Origin: Natrinema sp. HArc-T2
GTDB taxonomy: Archaea > Halobacteriota > Halobacteria > Halobacteriales > Natrialbaceae
Direction of reading: 5' to 3'
DNA: 64,000 nucleotides
Assembly (NCBI RefSeq): GCF_041821085.1
Contig: NZ_JBGUAZ010000001.1
Span: 744,001 to 808,000 of the forward strand
The position numbers were made by a program, and so were the translations under genes. Numbering within the stretch: position 1 is the stretch's first letter; the number at the start of each line of letters is the position of its first letter. This document shows positions 4,538 to 10,026 of this stretch, piece after piece. The notes below the pieces were generated by a model. The model searched no databases. It was given only the letters and a program-made list of their open reading frames with translations, and was not told the DNA's origin.

Positions 4538-5629
4538 TTAGTCTTCCGTCTCGGTCGGCAGCTTGTTCGCGGGCTCTTGCGTAATGTTTTCCGAGACCGT
4601 CCGGCGGTTGGTCTCGCCTACCCGATCGGCGACCTCGCCGACGACGTCCTCGAGGTGGCTCTGGACCTCGCTGTCGTCGTTTTTGACCAGGGCCCCTTTG
4701 CTGCCGTCGGCCCCGAAGTCGGGATGGATCGGAATCCGGCCCAGCAGTGGGATGTCGTACTTGTCGACGATGGTGTCAGCGCCGCCGGTGCCGAACAGAC
4801 CGTGCTGGTCACCACAGGACGGACAAATGAAGGAGCTCATGTTCTCGACGACGCCCAGGACCGGGGTGTCGTGTTTGTTGAACATCTGGATCCCCTTGCG
4901 GGTGTCGTCGAGTGCCATTTCCTGTGGCGTCGTGACGACGACGGCACCGGTGACGGGCATCGACTGCAGCAGGTTCAGCGTCGCGTCGCCCGTTCCCGGC
5001 GGCAGGTCGACGATCAGGTAGTCGAGTCGGCCCCACTCGACGCCCTCTAAGAACTTCATCATGAACTTGTTGACCATCGGCCCACGGAGGATCGCGGGGT
5101 CGTCCTCGTTTTCCATCATCATTCCCATGCTGATGATGCGGACGCCGTCCGAACGCGGCGGGACGATTTCCTCGTTGGGCGTGACGCCGGGATCGCTCTC
5201 GGCCGGGAGGATCTGGGGAACGTTCGGCCCGTGAATGTCGGCGTCGAGCAGTCCGACCATCGCGCCGCGTTTCTCGAGCCCGGCCGCAAGGTTGGCCGCA
5301 ACCGTCGTCTTGCCGACCCCACCTTTTCCGGAGGAGACGGCGATGACGTTGCGAACGCGTGGCAGGACTTCGTCGTCGAAGCCGTGTTCCTCGTCGACGT
5401 GTGCTCGCAGGTCGGCCTCGAGACCGGCGTCTTCGATGACGTCGCGGATCTGGTTGCCGATCTCCATCTCGGAGGGTGCATACGGCGCGTTAAACGCAAG
5501 CGAGATGCGAGCCGTCTCGTCGTCGATCGTGACGTCGTTGACCAGTCCGAGCGAGACGATGTCCTCGCCGATGTCCGGATCCTCGACCTCCTCGAGTTTG
5601 ATTTCGAGCTCGTGTGCTGTGATGGTCAT
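4538..5629 (-). CDS. apbC: Mrp/ApbC/NBP35-type P-loop ATPase, Fe-S cluster carrier
   Basis: 363-residue cytosolic P-loop NTPase that in related systems carries and delivers [4Fe-4S] clusters. Domains: N-terminal MIP18/DUF59 (1-85), deviant Walker A GKGGVGKT (101-108), LLDADIHGPN switch, and CPSC (Cys269, Cys272), the bridging cluster ligands at the dimer interface. The ATG at 5629 opens directly into DUF59. It lies just downstream, on the same strand, of a Fe-S/NrfD redox operon (5781-9126), a plausible client. Length and domain order are standard for archaeal Mrp. Confidence 0.93.
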   Translation of the reverse strand: MTITAHELEIKLEEVEDPDIGEDIVSLGLVNDVTIDDETARISLAFNAPYAPSEMEIGNQIRDVIEDAGLEADLRAHVDEEHGFDDEVLPRVRNVIAVSSGKGGVGKTTVAANLAAGLEKRGAMVGLLDADIHGPNVPQILPAESDPGVTPNEEIVPPRSDGVRIISMGMMMENEDDPAILRGPMVNKFMMKFLEGVEWGRLDYLIVDLPPGTGDATLNLLQSMPVTGAVVVTTPQEMALDDTRKGIQMFNKHDTPVLGVVENMSSFICPSCGDQHGLFGTGGADTIVDKYDIPLLGRIPIHPDFGADGSKGALVKNDDSEVQSHLEDVVGEVADRVGETNRRTVSENITQEPANKLPTETED

Positions 5630-5780: not shown

Positions 5781-6092
5781 TTATGGCGGGCCGACGCTGC
5801 TGATCGGCTCCGGTGGGCCGCCGTAGAAGACGACGCCGATCAGGACGGTCAGGATGAACATCCCGACCCACATCGAGGTCGTCAGGCCGACGAGATAGCC
5901 GACGCCGAGCAGTCCACTCGACGTGTCACGGGGCTTCCCGAGGAACCATGCTGCGAGCATGATGTAGACCGGGACCAGGATGATCGCGAAGATGACCCAG
6001 GTCCCCTCGTTGGGGAAGCCGGTGAAGCCGCCGGTGCCGTCGTAGCCGTGATACAGGAGTTCCGACGCGAATGTTGTCAGTGCTGGACTCAT
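5781..6092 (-). CDS. Small membrane protein, last gene of the PsrB/PsrC-like operon
   Basis: 103 residues with two strong hydrophobic segments (about 31-51 and 62-90). Its start overlaps the stop of the NrfD-like gene by 4 bp (ATGA), so it is translationally coupled and probably a small subunit of the same complex. I recognise no named family. A subunit role is inferred from context alone. Confidence 0.75.
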   Translation of the reverse strand: MSPALTTFASELLYHGYDGTGGFTGFPNEGTWVIFAIILVPVYIMLAAWFLGKPRDTSSGLLGVGYLVGLTTSMWVGMFILTVLIGVVFYGGPPEPISSVGPP

Positions 6093-7441
6093 GCTTCCAC
6101 CTCCGGTTCGGTCGCCTCGTCACCGTGTGCGTGGTCGCCACGCATGTGTTCGACCGCGTGGAGCTCGACCACTGGGACGAGCTTCGAGACGTTGAGGAAT
6201 AAAAGTGCCACCAGTCCAGCAGTCCCAGCGAGCGACAGCCACTCGATCAGGCTCGGGAAGTAGGTCCCGGGCGTGTTGGCGTAGATGTCGAACACCGGGT
6301 GCTTGAATCCTTCGACGACGAACAGGACCTTCTCGGTCAGCGTCCCCGTAAGGATGACCCCGCTGGCGAGGAGCGCTCGCTTCTTGCTGAACAGCGACGG
6401 ACGGATCGCCTGCAGGAAGATGTACACGAGCGTACTGAAGATCAGGAACATCGCAAGCTGATAGAGCGGGTGAGCGAGCTTCGCTTCGGCAGAGATTGCC
6501 TTCGCATTTGGTCCGAGGAAGACGCCGTTGAGAACGAACTGGAGCTGGAACCAGAGGAACAGCAGGGTGAAGAATCCGAGCCACAGGAGCAGCCCGCGGA
6601 AGATGTCGTCAGTGATGATGTGGTCCCAGTCGTAGGCGCGGCGGAACGCATACGAGATGATGGTCACACCGCCGATCGCCGACATCAGTGCGATGCTCAG
6701 GAACATCGGGCCCTGAATGCCGCCGGTCCAGGCGGGCATCGCCGGGAGCAGTGCGAACAGCCACGGGATGACGCCACCGTGGAGCAAGAGCGGGGCCATG
6801 ATGATAACTGCCGCCGCGAGCCACCAGACCATCCGCTCGATGATCTCGTCTTCTTCCTCGGTGTAGCCAAGCGTCATCAGCTTGTAGACCGGCTCGAAGC
6901 GATCGGGAAGCTGATCACGCAGTCGGCTGATGTCGTATCGGAGCGTGAGCGCGAGATAGGTCGCCGACAGCACGAAGTAGGCCGTAATGACCGTCACGTC
7001 CCACACCAGCGGCGAGTTGTTGACCGTGATATGGTAGTGACCGATGACGCTCGTGACCATCCGGTCCGGTCGACCCATGTGGACCAGAATGTAGAAGCCG
7101 GCGGCCGAGAGGCCACCGATGGTCGTCATCTCCGCGAGTCGGGCGATCGGCATGTATCGATCCATCCCGAGCAGTCGGACAGCAGCCGAGAGGATGATAC
7201 CGCCGTGTGCGACACCGACCCACCAGATGAATGCGCCGATGTACAGACCCCAGGTCGAGCCACCACCGGAGCCCCAGTCACCGAGCCCGGTGACGACTAG
7301 CCCCTTCTGGAGCTGGTAGGCCCAGCCCACGAGGAAGGCCACGAGGGCCAGGGCTGCGATGCCGTACAGGATGAAGTACTTCTTCGTGAGCGTGTTGATG
7401 GGACGAAGGATGTCCGCTTCGGTTGGCTCCTTCGTGCTCAT
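6089..7441 (-). CDS. NrfD/PsrC-like polytopic membrane subunit (quinone-interacting)
   Basis: 450-residue integral membrane protein with about ten hydrophobic helices and short loops; it ends in a His/Glu-rich cytosolic tail. The region WGLYIGAFIWWVGVAHGG and the conserved charged residues within helices fit the NrfD/PsrC (PF03916) superfamily, which exchanges electrons with menaquinol in polysulfide-, DMSO- and nitrite-reductase complexes and in alternative complex III. It overlaps by 4 bp both the Fe-S gene upstream and the small membrane gene downstream. With the men cluster in this window, menaquinone is the expected partner. Confidence 0.88.
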   Translation of the reverse strand: MSTKEPTEADILRPINTLTKKYFILYGIAALALVAFLVGWAYQLQKGLVVTGLGDWGSGGGSTWGLYIGAFIWWVGVAHGGIILSAAVRLLGMDRYMPIARLAEMTTIGGLSAAGFYILVHMGRPDRMVTSVIGHYHITVNNSPLVWDVTVITAYFVLSATYLALTLRYDISRLRDQLPDRFEPVYKLMTLGYTEEEDEIIERMVWWLAAAVIIMAPLLLHGGVIPWLFALLPAMPAWTGGIQGPMFLSIALMSAIGGVTIISYAFRRAYDWDHIITDDIFRGLLLWLGFFTLLFLWFQLQFVLNGVFLGPNAKAISAEAKLAHPLYQLAMFLIFSTLVYIFLQAIRPSLFSKKRALLASGVILTGTLTEKVLFVVEGFKHPVFDIYANTPGTYFPSLIEWLSLAGTAGLVALLFLNVSKLVPVVELHAVEHMRGDHAHGDEATEPEVEA

Positions 7442-9126
7442 AGCGACACCCCATCAATGTGGCCGACAGTACCTTTATCGAGTTCTTCCTGCCGCTTGTC
7501 GAGGAGACCGACGTCTTCGTACTTCGTCGGGCCCTCGACCTGACGGGCGTTCGTTCCGGGCTCCGCACCGAGGTACGTGACGTTCGGGTTCGTCCCGATG
7601 TCGTCGAGCAGGTTGAACGCGCTCGACTCGCCCACGTACTGCTGGAGTTGGAACCGTGCTTCCTGCTCGCTGCCGTCGCCGAGGTCCAGCGTATCGAGGG
7701 CCTCCTCGGTCTCGAGGTTGACGTACGATTCGATGGCGTCGAGGGACTCGAGAAGGGCCGCCTCGCTCTCGATCAGAGTGGTGTTGGCGTTGCCCTCGGG
7801 CTCGAGCCCTTCGCTGATGATGTCGATCGCTTTCATCATCGACAGCACCTCCTCGTCGAAGGTATCGCTCTCGCCGGCGGTGTCGAGCGCTTCGATCGCA
7901 GACTGGAGATCGTCACCATCGCTGAGCGTGCTGTCGACCGTCTCCGGATCGGGAACGTACCGACCACTACTGACGTGGTCGCCGCTCAGGTGGGCGATCG
8001 CCCGGCTCTTGACCGGGTGCTCGCGGTGCTGGTACGAGTCGCTCTTCTCGTCGTTGACGTCACCGAACTGGATCGCATTCGGCGGACAGGCCGATTCACA
8101 GGCGGTCGTCCCGACCTTCTCCTCGCCCTGTTTGCCGTCCTGCATGGTCGGACAGAACGTACACTTGCTCATGACGCCACGTGGGGCACGACTGTCGACC
8201 CACCGCGTGCCGTGTTCGTACTCGGCGTGCGTGATCTGGTCGGGGTCTTCGGGGCTCTCGAGGCCGTCGATGTCATCGTAGGCCACGCTGGGCTCGTCCC
8301 ACTGGAAGTAGTTGACGCCGTACGGGCAGGCGACCTGACAGTATCGGCAACCGATACAGACGTCGTAGTCGGTCAACACGATACCGTCCTTGTCACGGGT
8401 GTGACGGGCGGTCGTCGGGCACACCTTCTCACAGGGGGCGTCCGTGCAGTGCTGGCACGGTCGCACGAGCATGTTGAAGTCGCTCCCCATGTTGAAGTCG
8501 GTGTAGGTACCGGATTCTCTCACACCCTGGCCACCCTCGGGAGAAGTATGGTTGCGGTCCTCCCAAGCCATGACGTACATCCAGTTGACGCCCGCGTCGA
8601 GGTCGTTCTCCTGCTTGCAGGCCTGCATGCAGGTCAGACAGCCGTCACAGCGTTCCAGGTCGATCGTCATGCCCCACTGGGTATCGGGTTTCTCGTGGGT
8701 CTCTGTACTACTACCGTGGCCGCCTTCGGCAACGCTGGCCTCGGGACCGTCGTCGACGGTGCCCCACGCACCGACGCCGACGGCTGCCGCGCCGACACCC
8801 ATCTTCTTCATCGTTTCGCGACGGGTCTGCTCGCCGTCACCGTCGAACTTATCGAGCATTCGGGAGACCGTTCCCTTGGTCTCTTCCTGGGCCGCTTCGT
8901 AGGCCTCCTTCGTCGGACGCTCGTCCTCGCCGAACTCCTCCATCACGTCGTCGTGATATTTCTCGTGGAATTCGGCCTCAGAAAGTTCGCCGTTGGTGAC
9001 TCGCATCGCGTCGCGAGCCATGTCCATACCGAGTTGGCTATCGTACTCGGTATCGTCGAGCATCGACTCGAGTTCGCCTTCCCACTCATTTCCGAGTGGA
9101 TGGAATGATTCGTCGTCCGTACTCAT
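7438..9126 (-). CDS. PsrB/DmsB-like four-cluster ferredoxin protein with cytosolic N-terminal tail and internal Tat-like anchor
   Basis: 562 residues. Four Cys groups are visible: 160/163/166/170, 224/227/232/236, 257/260/263/267 and 322/325/343/347, the pattern of four [4Fe-4S] clusters in PsrB/NrfC/DmsB proteins. Unusually, about 100 acidic, mostly helical residues precede a twin-arginine motif (RR at 102-103, followed by MGVGAAAVGVGAWG). The N-terminus would then be cytosolic and the cluster domain outside. A ~200-residue acidic helical C-terminal extension follows the clusters. No molybdopterin subunit is adjacent. Confidence 0.88.
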   Translation of the reverse strand: MSTDDESFHPLGNEWEGELESMLDDTEYDSQLGMDMARDAMRVTNGELSEAEFHEKYHDDVMEEFGEDERPTKEAYEAAQEETKGTVSRMLDKFDGDGEQTRRETMKKMGVGAAAVGVGAWGTVDDGPEASVAEGGHGSSTETHEKPDTQWGMTIDLERCDGCLTCMQACKQENDLDAGVNWMYVMAWEDRNHTSPEGGQGVRESGTYTDFNMGSDFNMLVRPCQHCTDAPCEKVCPTTARHTRDKDGIVLTDYDVCIGCRYCQVACPYGVNYFQWDEPSVAYDDIDGLESPEDPDQITHAEYEHGTRWVDSRAPRGVMSKCTFCPTMQDGKQGEEKVGTTACESACPPNAIQFGDVNDEKSDSYQHREHPVKSRAIAHLSGDHVSSGRYVPDPETVDSTLSDGDDLQSAIEALDTAGESDTFDEEVLSMMKAIDIISEGLEPEGNANTTLIESEAALLESLDAIESYVNLETEEALDTLDLGDGSEQEARFQLQQYVGESSAFNLLDDIGTNPNVTYLGAEPGTNARQVEGPTKYEDVGLLDKRQEELDKGTVGHIDGVSL

Positions 9127-9147: not shown

Positions 9148-9163
9148 ATGACACTGGTGTCAT
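9148..9163. promoter_or_regulatory. Palindrome at the promoter of the Fe-S/NrfD operon
   Basis: ATGACAC-TG-GTGTCAT: perfect 7-bp arms with a 2-bp centre, 22-37 bp upstream of the Fe-S gene start (9126). It touches a TATA-like tatat at 9145-9149, so a protein bound here would affect initiation. The adjacent HTH_10 regulator is the obvious candidate binder, which is inference only. Confidence 0.4.
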
Positions 9164-9351: not shown

Positions 9352-10026
9352 TTACGTACCCGCGGGCTGATCCTCGAGATCGGCGTGCTCGGCAACACCT
9401 GGTAGCTCCGCGACGAACCGCTTGATCATCGCCTCTTCAGCCCGGTGAAGCGTCTCACTGCACGTCGATTTGGCGATGTCGAGGCGGGCCGCGAGTTCAG
9501 TCAGTGAACAGCGCCGTGGGGTGTCGTAGTAGCCCGCTTCGACGGCGGCGACTACCACTTCGAGTTGGCGCTCCGAGAGGAGCTGGCTCTCGTGAAGTCG
9601 CTCACTGACGTTCTCGATCCGATACTGGAACCCGAACCGCTCGAGCTGTTTGGCGAGGTCTGCCAGCCGTTCGCGGGAGCCGGTGACCTCGACAGTCGCC
9701 TCGCCGTCGACGATTTCCACTGGGAGTTCGATCGGGACACCCGACTCCTGCGAGGATACCAACAGCAACGGTGCCGTCGTCTCGAAGTGAACCGTCGCTT
9801 CGCTGTCCGCTTGCTGTACGATCGTGAGTTCAGTGAGCTGTGAATGGTCGGCCATCGCTTCGATCACCGCCGTGACTGTCTGCCCGGTGATCCGAACGAG
9901 CGCAAACCCGGACTCGGGCCCGGGAACAGCCGCGAGCACCCGAAATGTCGACTCGGGATAGGCTGTCGATAGCTGCTGAATCCAGATCTCCTCGGGCATC
10001 GTAATCGTGAGTGTCGCGTGGGCCAT
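9352..10026 (-). CDS. HTH_10 (bacterio-opsin activator/DmsR-type) transcriptional regulator
   Basis: 224 residues: an N-terminal sensor-like region (1-150) and a C-terminal HTH_10 domain (LLSERQLEVVVAAVEAGYYDTPRRCSLTELAARLDIAKSTCSETLHRAEE, about 150-200). HTH_10 proteins are common haloarchaeal activators, such as Bat for bacterio-opsin and DmsR for DMSO reductase. It sits directly upstream of, and on the same strand as, the Fe-S/NrfD operon with 225 bp between, and probably controls it. No Cys-rich redox sensor motif is visible in the N-terminal part. Confidence 0.85.
   Translation of the reverse strand: MAHATLTITMPEEIWIQQLSTAYPESTFRVLAAVPGPESGFALVRITGQTVTAVIEAMADHSQLTELTIVQQADSEATVHFETTAPLLLVSSQESGVPIELPVEIVDGEATVEVTGSRERLADLAKQLERFGFQYRIENVSERLHESQLLSERQLEVVVAAVEAGYYDTPRRCSLTELAARLDIAKSTCSETLHRAEEAMIKRFVAELPGVAEHADLEDQPAGT

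Follow-up and report, generated by a model that had tools for sequence, protein, structure and literature searches.

A four-gene cassette on the minus strand of a 64-kb stretch of the Natrinema sp. HArc-T2 genome (contig NZ_JBGUAZ010000001.1, positions 744,001 to 808,000; this whole stretch of 64,000 nucleotides is hereafter called the window) probably encodes a minimal, heme-free and MopB-free menaquinol:halocyanin oxidoreductase resembling alternative complex III (ACIII), judging from its sequence and structure predictions. It comprises the genes of an iron-sulfur (Fe-S) subunit of 562 aa (7438–9126), an NrfD-family quinol-binding membrane subunit of 450 aa (6089–7441), a small membrane protein of 103 aa (5781–6092), and an Mrp/NUBPL (ApbC-type) Fe-S carrier P-loop NTPase (4538–5629). 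The Fe-S/NrfD and NrfD/small gene pairs each overlap by 4 bp. This reading is grounded in the genes present and their conservation, in phylogeny, in matches of fold and of residues, in the tendency of the cassette to occur where cytochrome b is missing, and in the adjacency of halocyanin genes. A first-pass annotation of the window had reported the three overlapping genes, a four-cluster Fe-S protein and no MopB (molybdoenzyme) gene near them; all of this was confirmed, gene coordinates included, with no MopB gene inside the window and the nearest one lying on the same contig at a distance of about 160 kb. Its hint at alternative complex III proved to be the best fit.

The cassette is a specific candidate for the missing menaquinol-to-halocyanin enzyme of haloarchaea lacking cytochrome bc1. 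If this is true, a published open question on these organisms would be answered, and no simpler ACIII-like quinol oxidase would be known to us; this would suggest that ACIII could oxidise quinol without its hemes and its MopB-like part. A Pfam domain so far named merely "N-terminal region of 4Fe-4S ferredoxin" would also gain a first role.

An NrfD subunit resembling ActC

By profile, tree and predicted model, the membrane subunit (PF03916) is closer to ACIII subunit C (ActC) than to PsrC, so that its earlier description as a PsrC-like protein stood as to the NrfD family and not as to the nearest relative. In the PDB its profile matched nothing but ACIII subunit C chains (E-values 4e-24 to 5e-28), even when matches up to E ≤10 were allowed. 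The predicted structure, with ten transmembrane (TM) helices and a mean predicted local distance difference test score (pLDDT) of 65, aligned with four ActC structures at VIA Z scores of 31.9–32.7 over 413–419 residues. In a tree of 56 NrfD sequences, whose long branches call for caution, bacterial ActC fell on the side of the cassette proteins, as did two divergent haloarchaeal sequences, and haloarchaeal DmsC types fell on the other (support 99/90).

The residues tell the same lineages apart. The quinol site of R. marinus ActC includes His139 and Asp169, and further residues line its half-channel (PMC5928083); together they map to H121, D148, H79, S85, R101, E104, T107, D170, R175, E370 and K371. 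All of these are conserved throughout the 16 cassette sequences, and each except K371, which is Arg in ActC, also occurs in at least 22 of the 23 bacterial proteins of the ActC type. DmsC-type proteins have A79, V104, D121 and G175 at these positions. Position 121 is Asp in all other haloarchaeal relatives examined (Ser in one), and likewise in L085, the one bacterial match whose MopB is a separate protein. A 2021 review (PMC8076601) assigned ActC and Halobacterium DmsC to one broad group, so this finer residue and tree evidence matters.

A second NrfD gene of the host genome (G000; L010:7391–8743, contig C2) is solitary, with no Fe-S neighbour; its product is 71% identical and keeps all ActC-type residues. 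Similar solitary copies exist in other Natrialbaceae. Apparent in-frame stops in such genes proved, in the two cases checked, to be the codons that end the genes themselves, and an assignment to ActF was rejected, since the quinol site is kept, unlike in ActF.

Architecture of the Fe-S subunit

The Fe-S subunit consists of a Ferredoxin_N/DmsE-like domain (residues 9–73), an internal twin-arginine translocation (Tat) signal (R102–R103), a four-cluster core of the ActB/PsrB type with Fer4 family matches (151–356), a helical insertion (about 363–500) and a conserved tail of the complex iron-sulfur molybdoenzyme (CISM) type (about 501–562). Its best profile matches in the PDB were ACIII subunit B. 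The 16 cluster cysteines are C160/163/166/170, C224/227/232/236, C257/260/263/267 and C322/325/343/347; 15 of them are invariant across 44 homologues, as is the twin arginine.

The roughly 100 acidic residues that had been noted ahead of an internal twin arginine (32% Asp plus Glu over residues 1–101) contain a real domain, PF16947 (E 3.6e-35; 120.3 bits against a gathering cut-off of 25). A mis-called start, which would have made these residues spurious, was ruled out by this match, by the invariant twin arginine and by a ribosome-binding-site-like motif, GAGGTG, which precedes the ATG in most Natrialbaceae loci. PF16947 is present in 75 of the 145 genomes of the class and occurs in three settings: fused ahead of the Tat signal of an Fe-S protein, as in the window; as a separate protein of 71–121 aa with an HTH_10 gene before it and a Tat-bearing MopB gene directly after it; and fused to an Fe-S protein followed by NrfD and a MopB protein of about 1100 aa. 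The Halobacterium dmsREABCD operon has the gene order R-E-A-B-C (PMC1971269), and we identified the separate protein as DmsE by position because its surroundings match this order. As the domain always stands ahead of a Tat-exported redox subunit, its position suggests a role in maturation or Tat export. Two Ferredoxin_N/DmsE-like genes stand in tandem ahead of a single MopB gene at L127:8721–9260, and genome G001 has seven copies of the domain.

About 214 residues follow the last cluster cysteine, and the final 50 or so form the CISM tail (...GTNPNVTYLG..EPG). The Fe-S proteins share FGD-x-N past the last cluster cysteine and GT-N-PNVxYxG-EPG at the end, and bacterial ActB proteins have a matching tail, NTKPRTTYLAKVRNPNP. 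Between the shared motifs lies an insertion of about 110–140 residues in Natrialbaceae, which is shorter or missing elsewhere and therefore appears to be a variable decoration on the outer side. In the AlphaFold2 model the core had a mean pLDDT of 57 and the helical insertion one of about 90; given the low confidence in the core, the insertion alone was taken from the model, and it is predicted with high confidence to be helical. Fold comparison with AlphaFold2 models found no convincing relative of the insertion or of the N-terminal domain. Because the insertion comes after the Tat signal, it should lie outside the membrane, and the N-terminal domain alone would be cytosolic. What the first-pass annotation took for a helical extension of some 200 residues is made up of a lineage-specific insertion and, behind it, a conventional CISM tail; its suggestion of a cytosolic tail for sensing or docking finds no support, since this part follows the Tat signal.

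A second Ferredoxin_N Fe-S protein of G000 (L012:7974–9641, contig C5; 57% identical) is encoded alone beside phosphoenolpyruvate carboxylase. Its fourth motif has Asp in place of the ligand C325, as do its orthologues, and from sequence it may hold a 3Fe-4S or Asp-ligated cluster.

Cytochrome b absence, oxidases and halocyanin

The step from menaquinol to halocyanin was described as unresolved in the bc1-less Haloterrigena turkmenica, Natronomonas pharaonis and Natrialba magadii by Siddaramappa et al. 2012 (PMC3403918), and in about a third of haloarchaea, especially Natrialbales, by Pfeiffer and Dyall-Smith 2021 (PMC8305020). None of the papers searched deals with both NrfD and halocyanin. 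We surveyed 145 genomes of the class, scoring cytochrome b by PF00033 and the cassette by its NrfD at 739 bits or more. Cytochrome b was absent from 40 genomes, including that of the host, and the cassette was present in 38 of these 40, compared with 13 of the 105 genomes with cytochrome b (Fisher 2e-21, uncorrected for kinship; by genera, 15/17 versus 8/42, 1e-6). The two cytochrome-b-less genomes without the cassette, G007 and G093 (2.1–2.2 Mb), also lack halocyanin and COX2, as would be expected of anaerobes. In an RpoB' tree with weak deep support, the cytochrome-b-less genomes bearing the cassette fell into at least four clades (f1, genus g31, G117 and G129). A search for Rieske proteins was not informative, its matches being dominated by ferredoxin-like and dioxygenase-like proteins.

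The host genome encodes three CuA-type COX2 proteins, all with an intact CuA motif, together with five Copper-bind matches and two cytochrome bd oxidases. An intact CuA motif normally points to a one-electron donor and not to quinol. Immediately upstream of the cassette, G117 has a halocyanin gene in the same orientation, 46 bp off, and a second one beyond it; a halocyanin gene occupies the corresponding place in G104 (65-bp gap) and in G047 and G045 (where the called open reading frames, ORFs, overlap). In examples from clade f1 it stands between the orthologous HTH_10 gene and the Fe-S gene, and in G129 it is divergent from the cassette.

These data also bear on whether the cassette, as a menaquinol:halocyanin or cupredoxin module, feeds copper-dependent denitrification or detoxification enzymes and not the main aerobic chain. 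Its presence beside cytochrome b in 13 genomes would fit this, as would the DmsR/Bat kind of its HTH_10 regulator and G129, which has the cassette and halocyanin and no COX2 or cytochrome bd match. In G138, moreover, an ORF convergent to and downstream of the cassette (L151:13350–15632) has an N-terminus that by eye resembles quinol-dependent nitric oxide reductase. Nevertheless, the cassette is nearly universal where cytochrome b is missing, in genomes that for the most part had not been chosen with denitrification in view, and we regard this alternative as unlikely.

Conservation of the cassette and its MopB-bearing cousins

The order of Fe-S gene (with N-terminal domain and Tat signal), NrfD, small gene and Mrp is conserved across several families of Halobacteriales in the 62 loci examined. 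It is complete, with four intact genes, in 56 of them; some of the others are cut off by a contig end or have a split gene. Across 295 genomes of the phylum, matches to the cassette NrfD at E 1e-40 or better were confined to the taxonomic order of the host, Halobacteriales. The small protein has TM helices at residues 33–51 and 70–88 and no Pfam match; its family is encoded exclusively beside this module and is kept in nearly all cassette loci. The gene is tandemly doubled in the NrfD–Mrp gap of many Natrialbaceae (L028, L030, L031, L034, L035, L041, L042, L046, L058 and L062). A comparison with the ORF after ActC, likely ActD, gave an hhalign probability of 0.3, and no relation was detectable. 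Mrp (PF10609, E 1.4e-90) closes the cassette, and its adjacency is kept.

A MopB gene was found in the scanned flanks of only one of the 62 loci, several kb off and with its own Fe-S gene, which supports the earlier proposal of a menaquinone module without a catalytic subunit of its own. No locus had an ORF with two or more CXXCH motifs, a screen for multiheme cytochromes that leaves single-CXXCH proteins outside its scope. Distant cousins are different: L264 (G029), L272 (G129) and, more remotely, L135 have MopB beside Fe-S and NrfD genes, so that a catalytic subunit is a normal neighbour among these and not among orthologues. L264 (4544–9751) and L272 (7837–12993) encode a Phs/Psr-like MopB of unassigned substrate, Fe-S and NrfD proteins, and a member of the same small-protein family. 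Their Tat signal is on MopB, as in MopB-containing operons in general, and their Fe-S proteins have neither a Tat signal nor PF16947; in the cassette the Tat signal is on the Fe-S subunit. On a simple history, MopB would have been lost from the ancestral module while its DmsE-like domain and Tat signal were transferred to the Fe-S protein. A further divergent Fe-S/NrfD pair (L155:8140–13732, G046) lies by an ethylbenzene-dehydrogenase-gamma-like (EB_dh) protein and an MMPL transporter.

The cousins L264, L272 and L135, which set a Phs/Psr-like MopB by the same Fe-S, NrfD and, in part, small genes, favour a shared quinone module for a molybdoenzyme catalytic subunit encoded elsewhere, that is, a CISM with a remote A subunit, as the first-pass annotation proposed for a PsrC-like module. 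The host genome does hold four MopB genes. However, for three of them the N-termini that were seen lack a Tat signal, and the fourth comes with Fe-S and NrfD genes of its own, leaving no exported orphan in sight. Orthologues of the cassette never have a MopB of their own, its Tat signal is on the Fe-S protein, unlike in Fe-S partners of MopB, and its quinol-site His is as in ActC where almost all MopB-linked relatives have Asp. This explanation fits more poorly, and we consider it rather improbable.

Proposed electron path and its limits

In the following scheme we infer which way electrons flow, that halocyanin is the partner, that protons are pumped, and what the N-terminal domain, the small protein and Mrp do. 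On the outer face, menaquinol would bind NrfD in the vicinity of H121 and D148; electrons would enter the nearest cluster of the Tat-exported Fe-S subunit and pass through its four clusters to membrane-anchored halocyanin, which would supply the CuA terminal oxidases. The half-channel residues of NrfD, being of the ActC type, suggest that this transfer is coupled to proton translocation. The DmsE-like domain would stay inside and probably act in maturation or Tat export, and Mrp probably delivers Fe-S clusters. For cytochrome-b-less haloarchaea at large, we see about an even chance that complex III is a heme-free and molybdopterin-free ACIII-like assembly of one Fe-S protein, one proton-translocating ActC-type quinol subunit and one small membrane protein, with a blue copper protein as acceptor. 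Reverse flow, in which an exported donor would reduce menaquinone through the Fe-S and NrfD subunits as in QrcCD or HybA/HybB, is improbable: NCBIfam scores for QrcC, HybA and DsrO exceed noise, though far under their cut-offs, and NrfD subunits of known complexes run in either direction, but the surroundings contain no conserved gene for a hydrogenase, formate dehydrogenase or cytochrome donor, the neighbour found is halocyanin, a high-potential carrier, and the ActC-type quinol-oxidising residues are conserved.

Several points weigh against a menaquinol:halocyanin oxidoreductase. The evidence for it is computational. The 13 genomes with both cassette and cytochrome b mean that replacement is not strict, and the co-occurrence of the cassette with absence of cytochrome b is phylogenetically clustered, in about four clades of a single-gene tree. 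The two cytochrome bd oxidases of the host could oxidise menaquinol directly, and G129 has the cassette without a COX2 or bd match. Halocyanin is not adjacent to the cassette in the host genome or in most Natrialbaceae, and the MopB-bearing cousins L264 and L272 show that this same membrane part can also work for a molybdoenzyme. Finally, Sorokin et al. 2018 (PMC6176080) reported that their natronoarchaea lack complex III and homologues of ACIII, and proposed quinol-type heme-copper oxidases.

Neighbouring genes and a candidate operator

The gene upstream of the cassette (9352–10026, minus strand) encodes an HTH_10 (Bat/DmsR-type) regulator (PF04967, E 1.4e-18) and is part of the conserved set in Natrialbaceae (33 loci). 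A perfect inverted repeat, ATGACAC-CA-GTGTCAT (9148–9163), lies 22–37 nt upstream of the Fe-S start codon; it is kept in close Natrinema relatives only and is a possible operator for the adjacent regulator. TTTAWA sites within the window were at chance level. The closest named relatives of the Fe-S and NrfD proteins are from Haloterrigena sp. H1, Natrinema hispanicum and N. limicola.

Comparison with known systems

When bacterial and archaeal genomes were scanned, 30 of the 31 best matches to the Fe-S subunit outside haloarchaea were ActB-type fusions of about 800–1200 aa. Almost all of these have a gene with five CXXCH motifs in their neighbourhood, and in most cases an ActC gene comes next; as short peptide patterns served to seed the scan, it is a strong hint and no census. 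The cassette shares with ACIII (ActABCDEF) an Fe-S protein homologous to the ferredoxin half of ActB, with four clusters and a predicted outer-face location by its Tat motif, an ActC-type NrfD with ten TM helices, the quinol-site His and Asp and the half-channel residues, and the proposed oxidation of quinol without cytochrome b. It differs in lacking the MopB-like half of ActB (the 562-aa protein has no MopB domain, and no locus has a MopB of its own) as well as pentaheme ActA and monoheme ActE (within the limits of the CXXCH screen), and in having one NrfD with no ActF beside it. The proposed acceptor is a copper protein, versus cytochrome c or a high-potential iron-sulfur protein in ACIII, and the N-terminal DmsE-like domain and the Mrp gene are the cassette's own. 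As the MopB-like part, hemes and ActF are missing and no ActD is detectable, we call it ACIII-like and not ACIII.

With haloarchaeal dmsREABCD the cassette has in common the HTH_10 regulator, the PF16947 domain, and the Fe-S and NrfD subunits. There, however, PF16947 is a separate protein in the DmsE position, a Tat-bearing MopB catalytic subunit is present, and NrfD belongs to the other branch, with Asp at the position of the quinol-site His. PsrABC (2vpw) shares the Fe-S fold (VIA Z 8.2) and the core NrfD fold, but has the catalytic PsrA, and its eight-TM PsrC aligns over 230 residues only (Z 16.3, versus about 32 for ActC). CISM enzymes such as dimethyl sulfoxide and polysulfide reductases likewise differ by their MopB catalytic subunit, which the cassette operon lacks. 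The haloarchaeal cytochrome bc1/b6f-type complex (petABD), built from unrelated proteins and missing from the host genome, is proposed to carry out the same step, from menaquinol to halocyanin.

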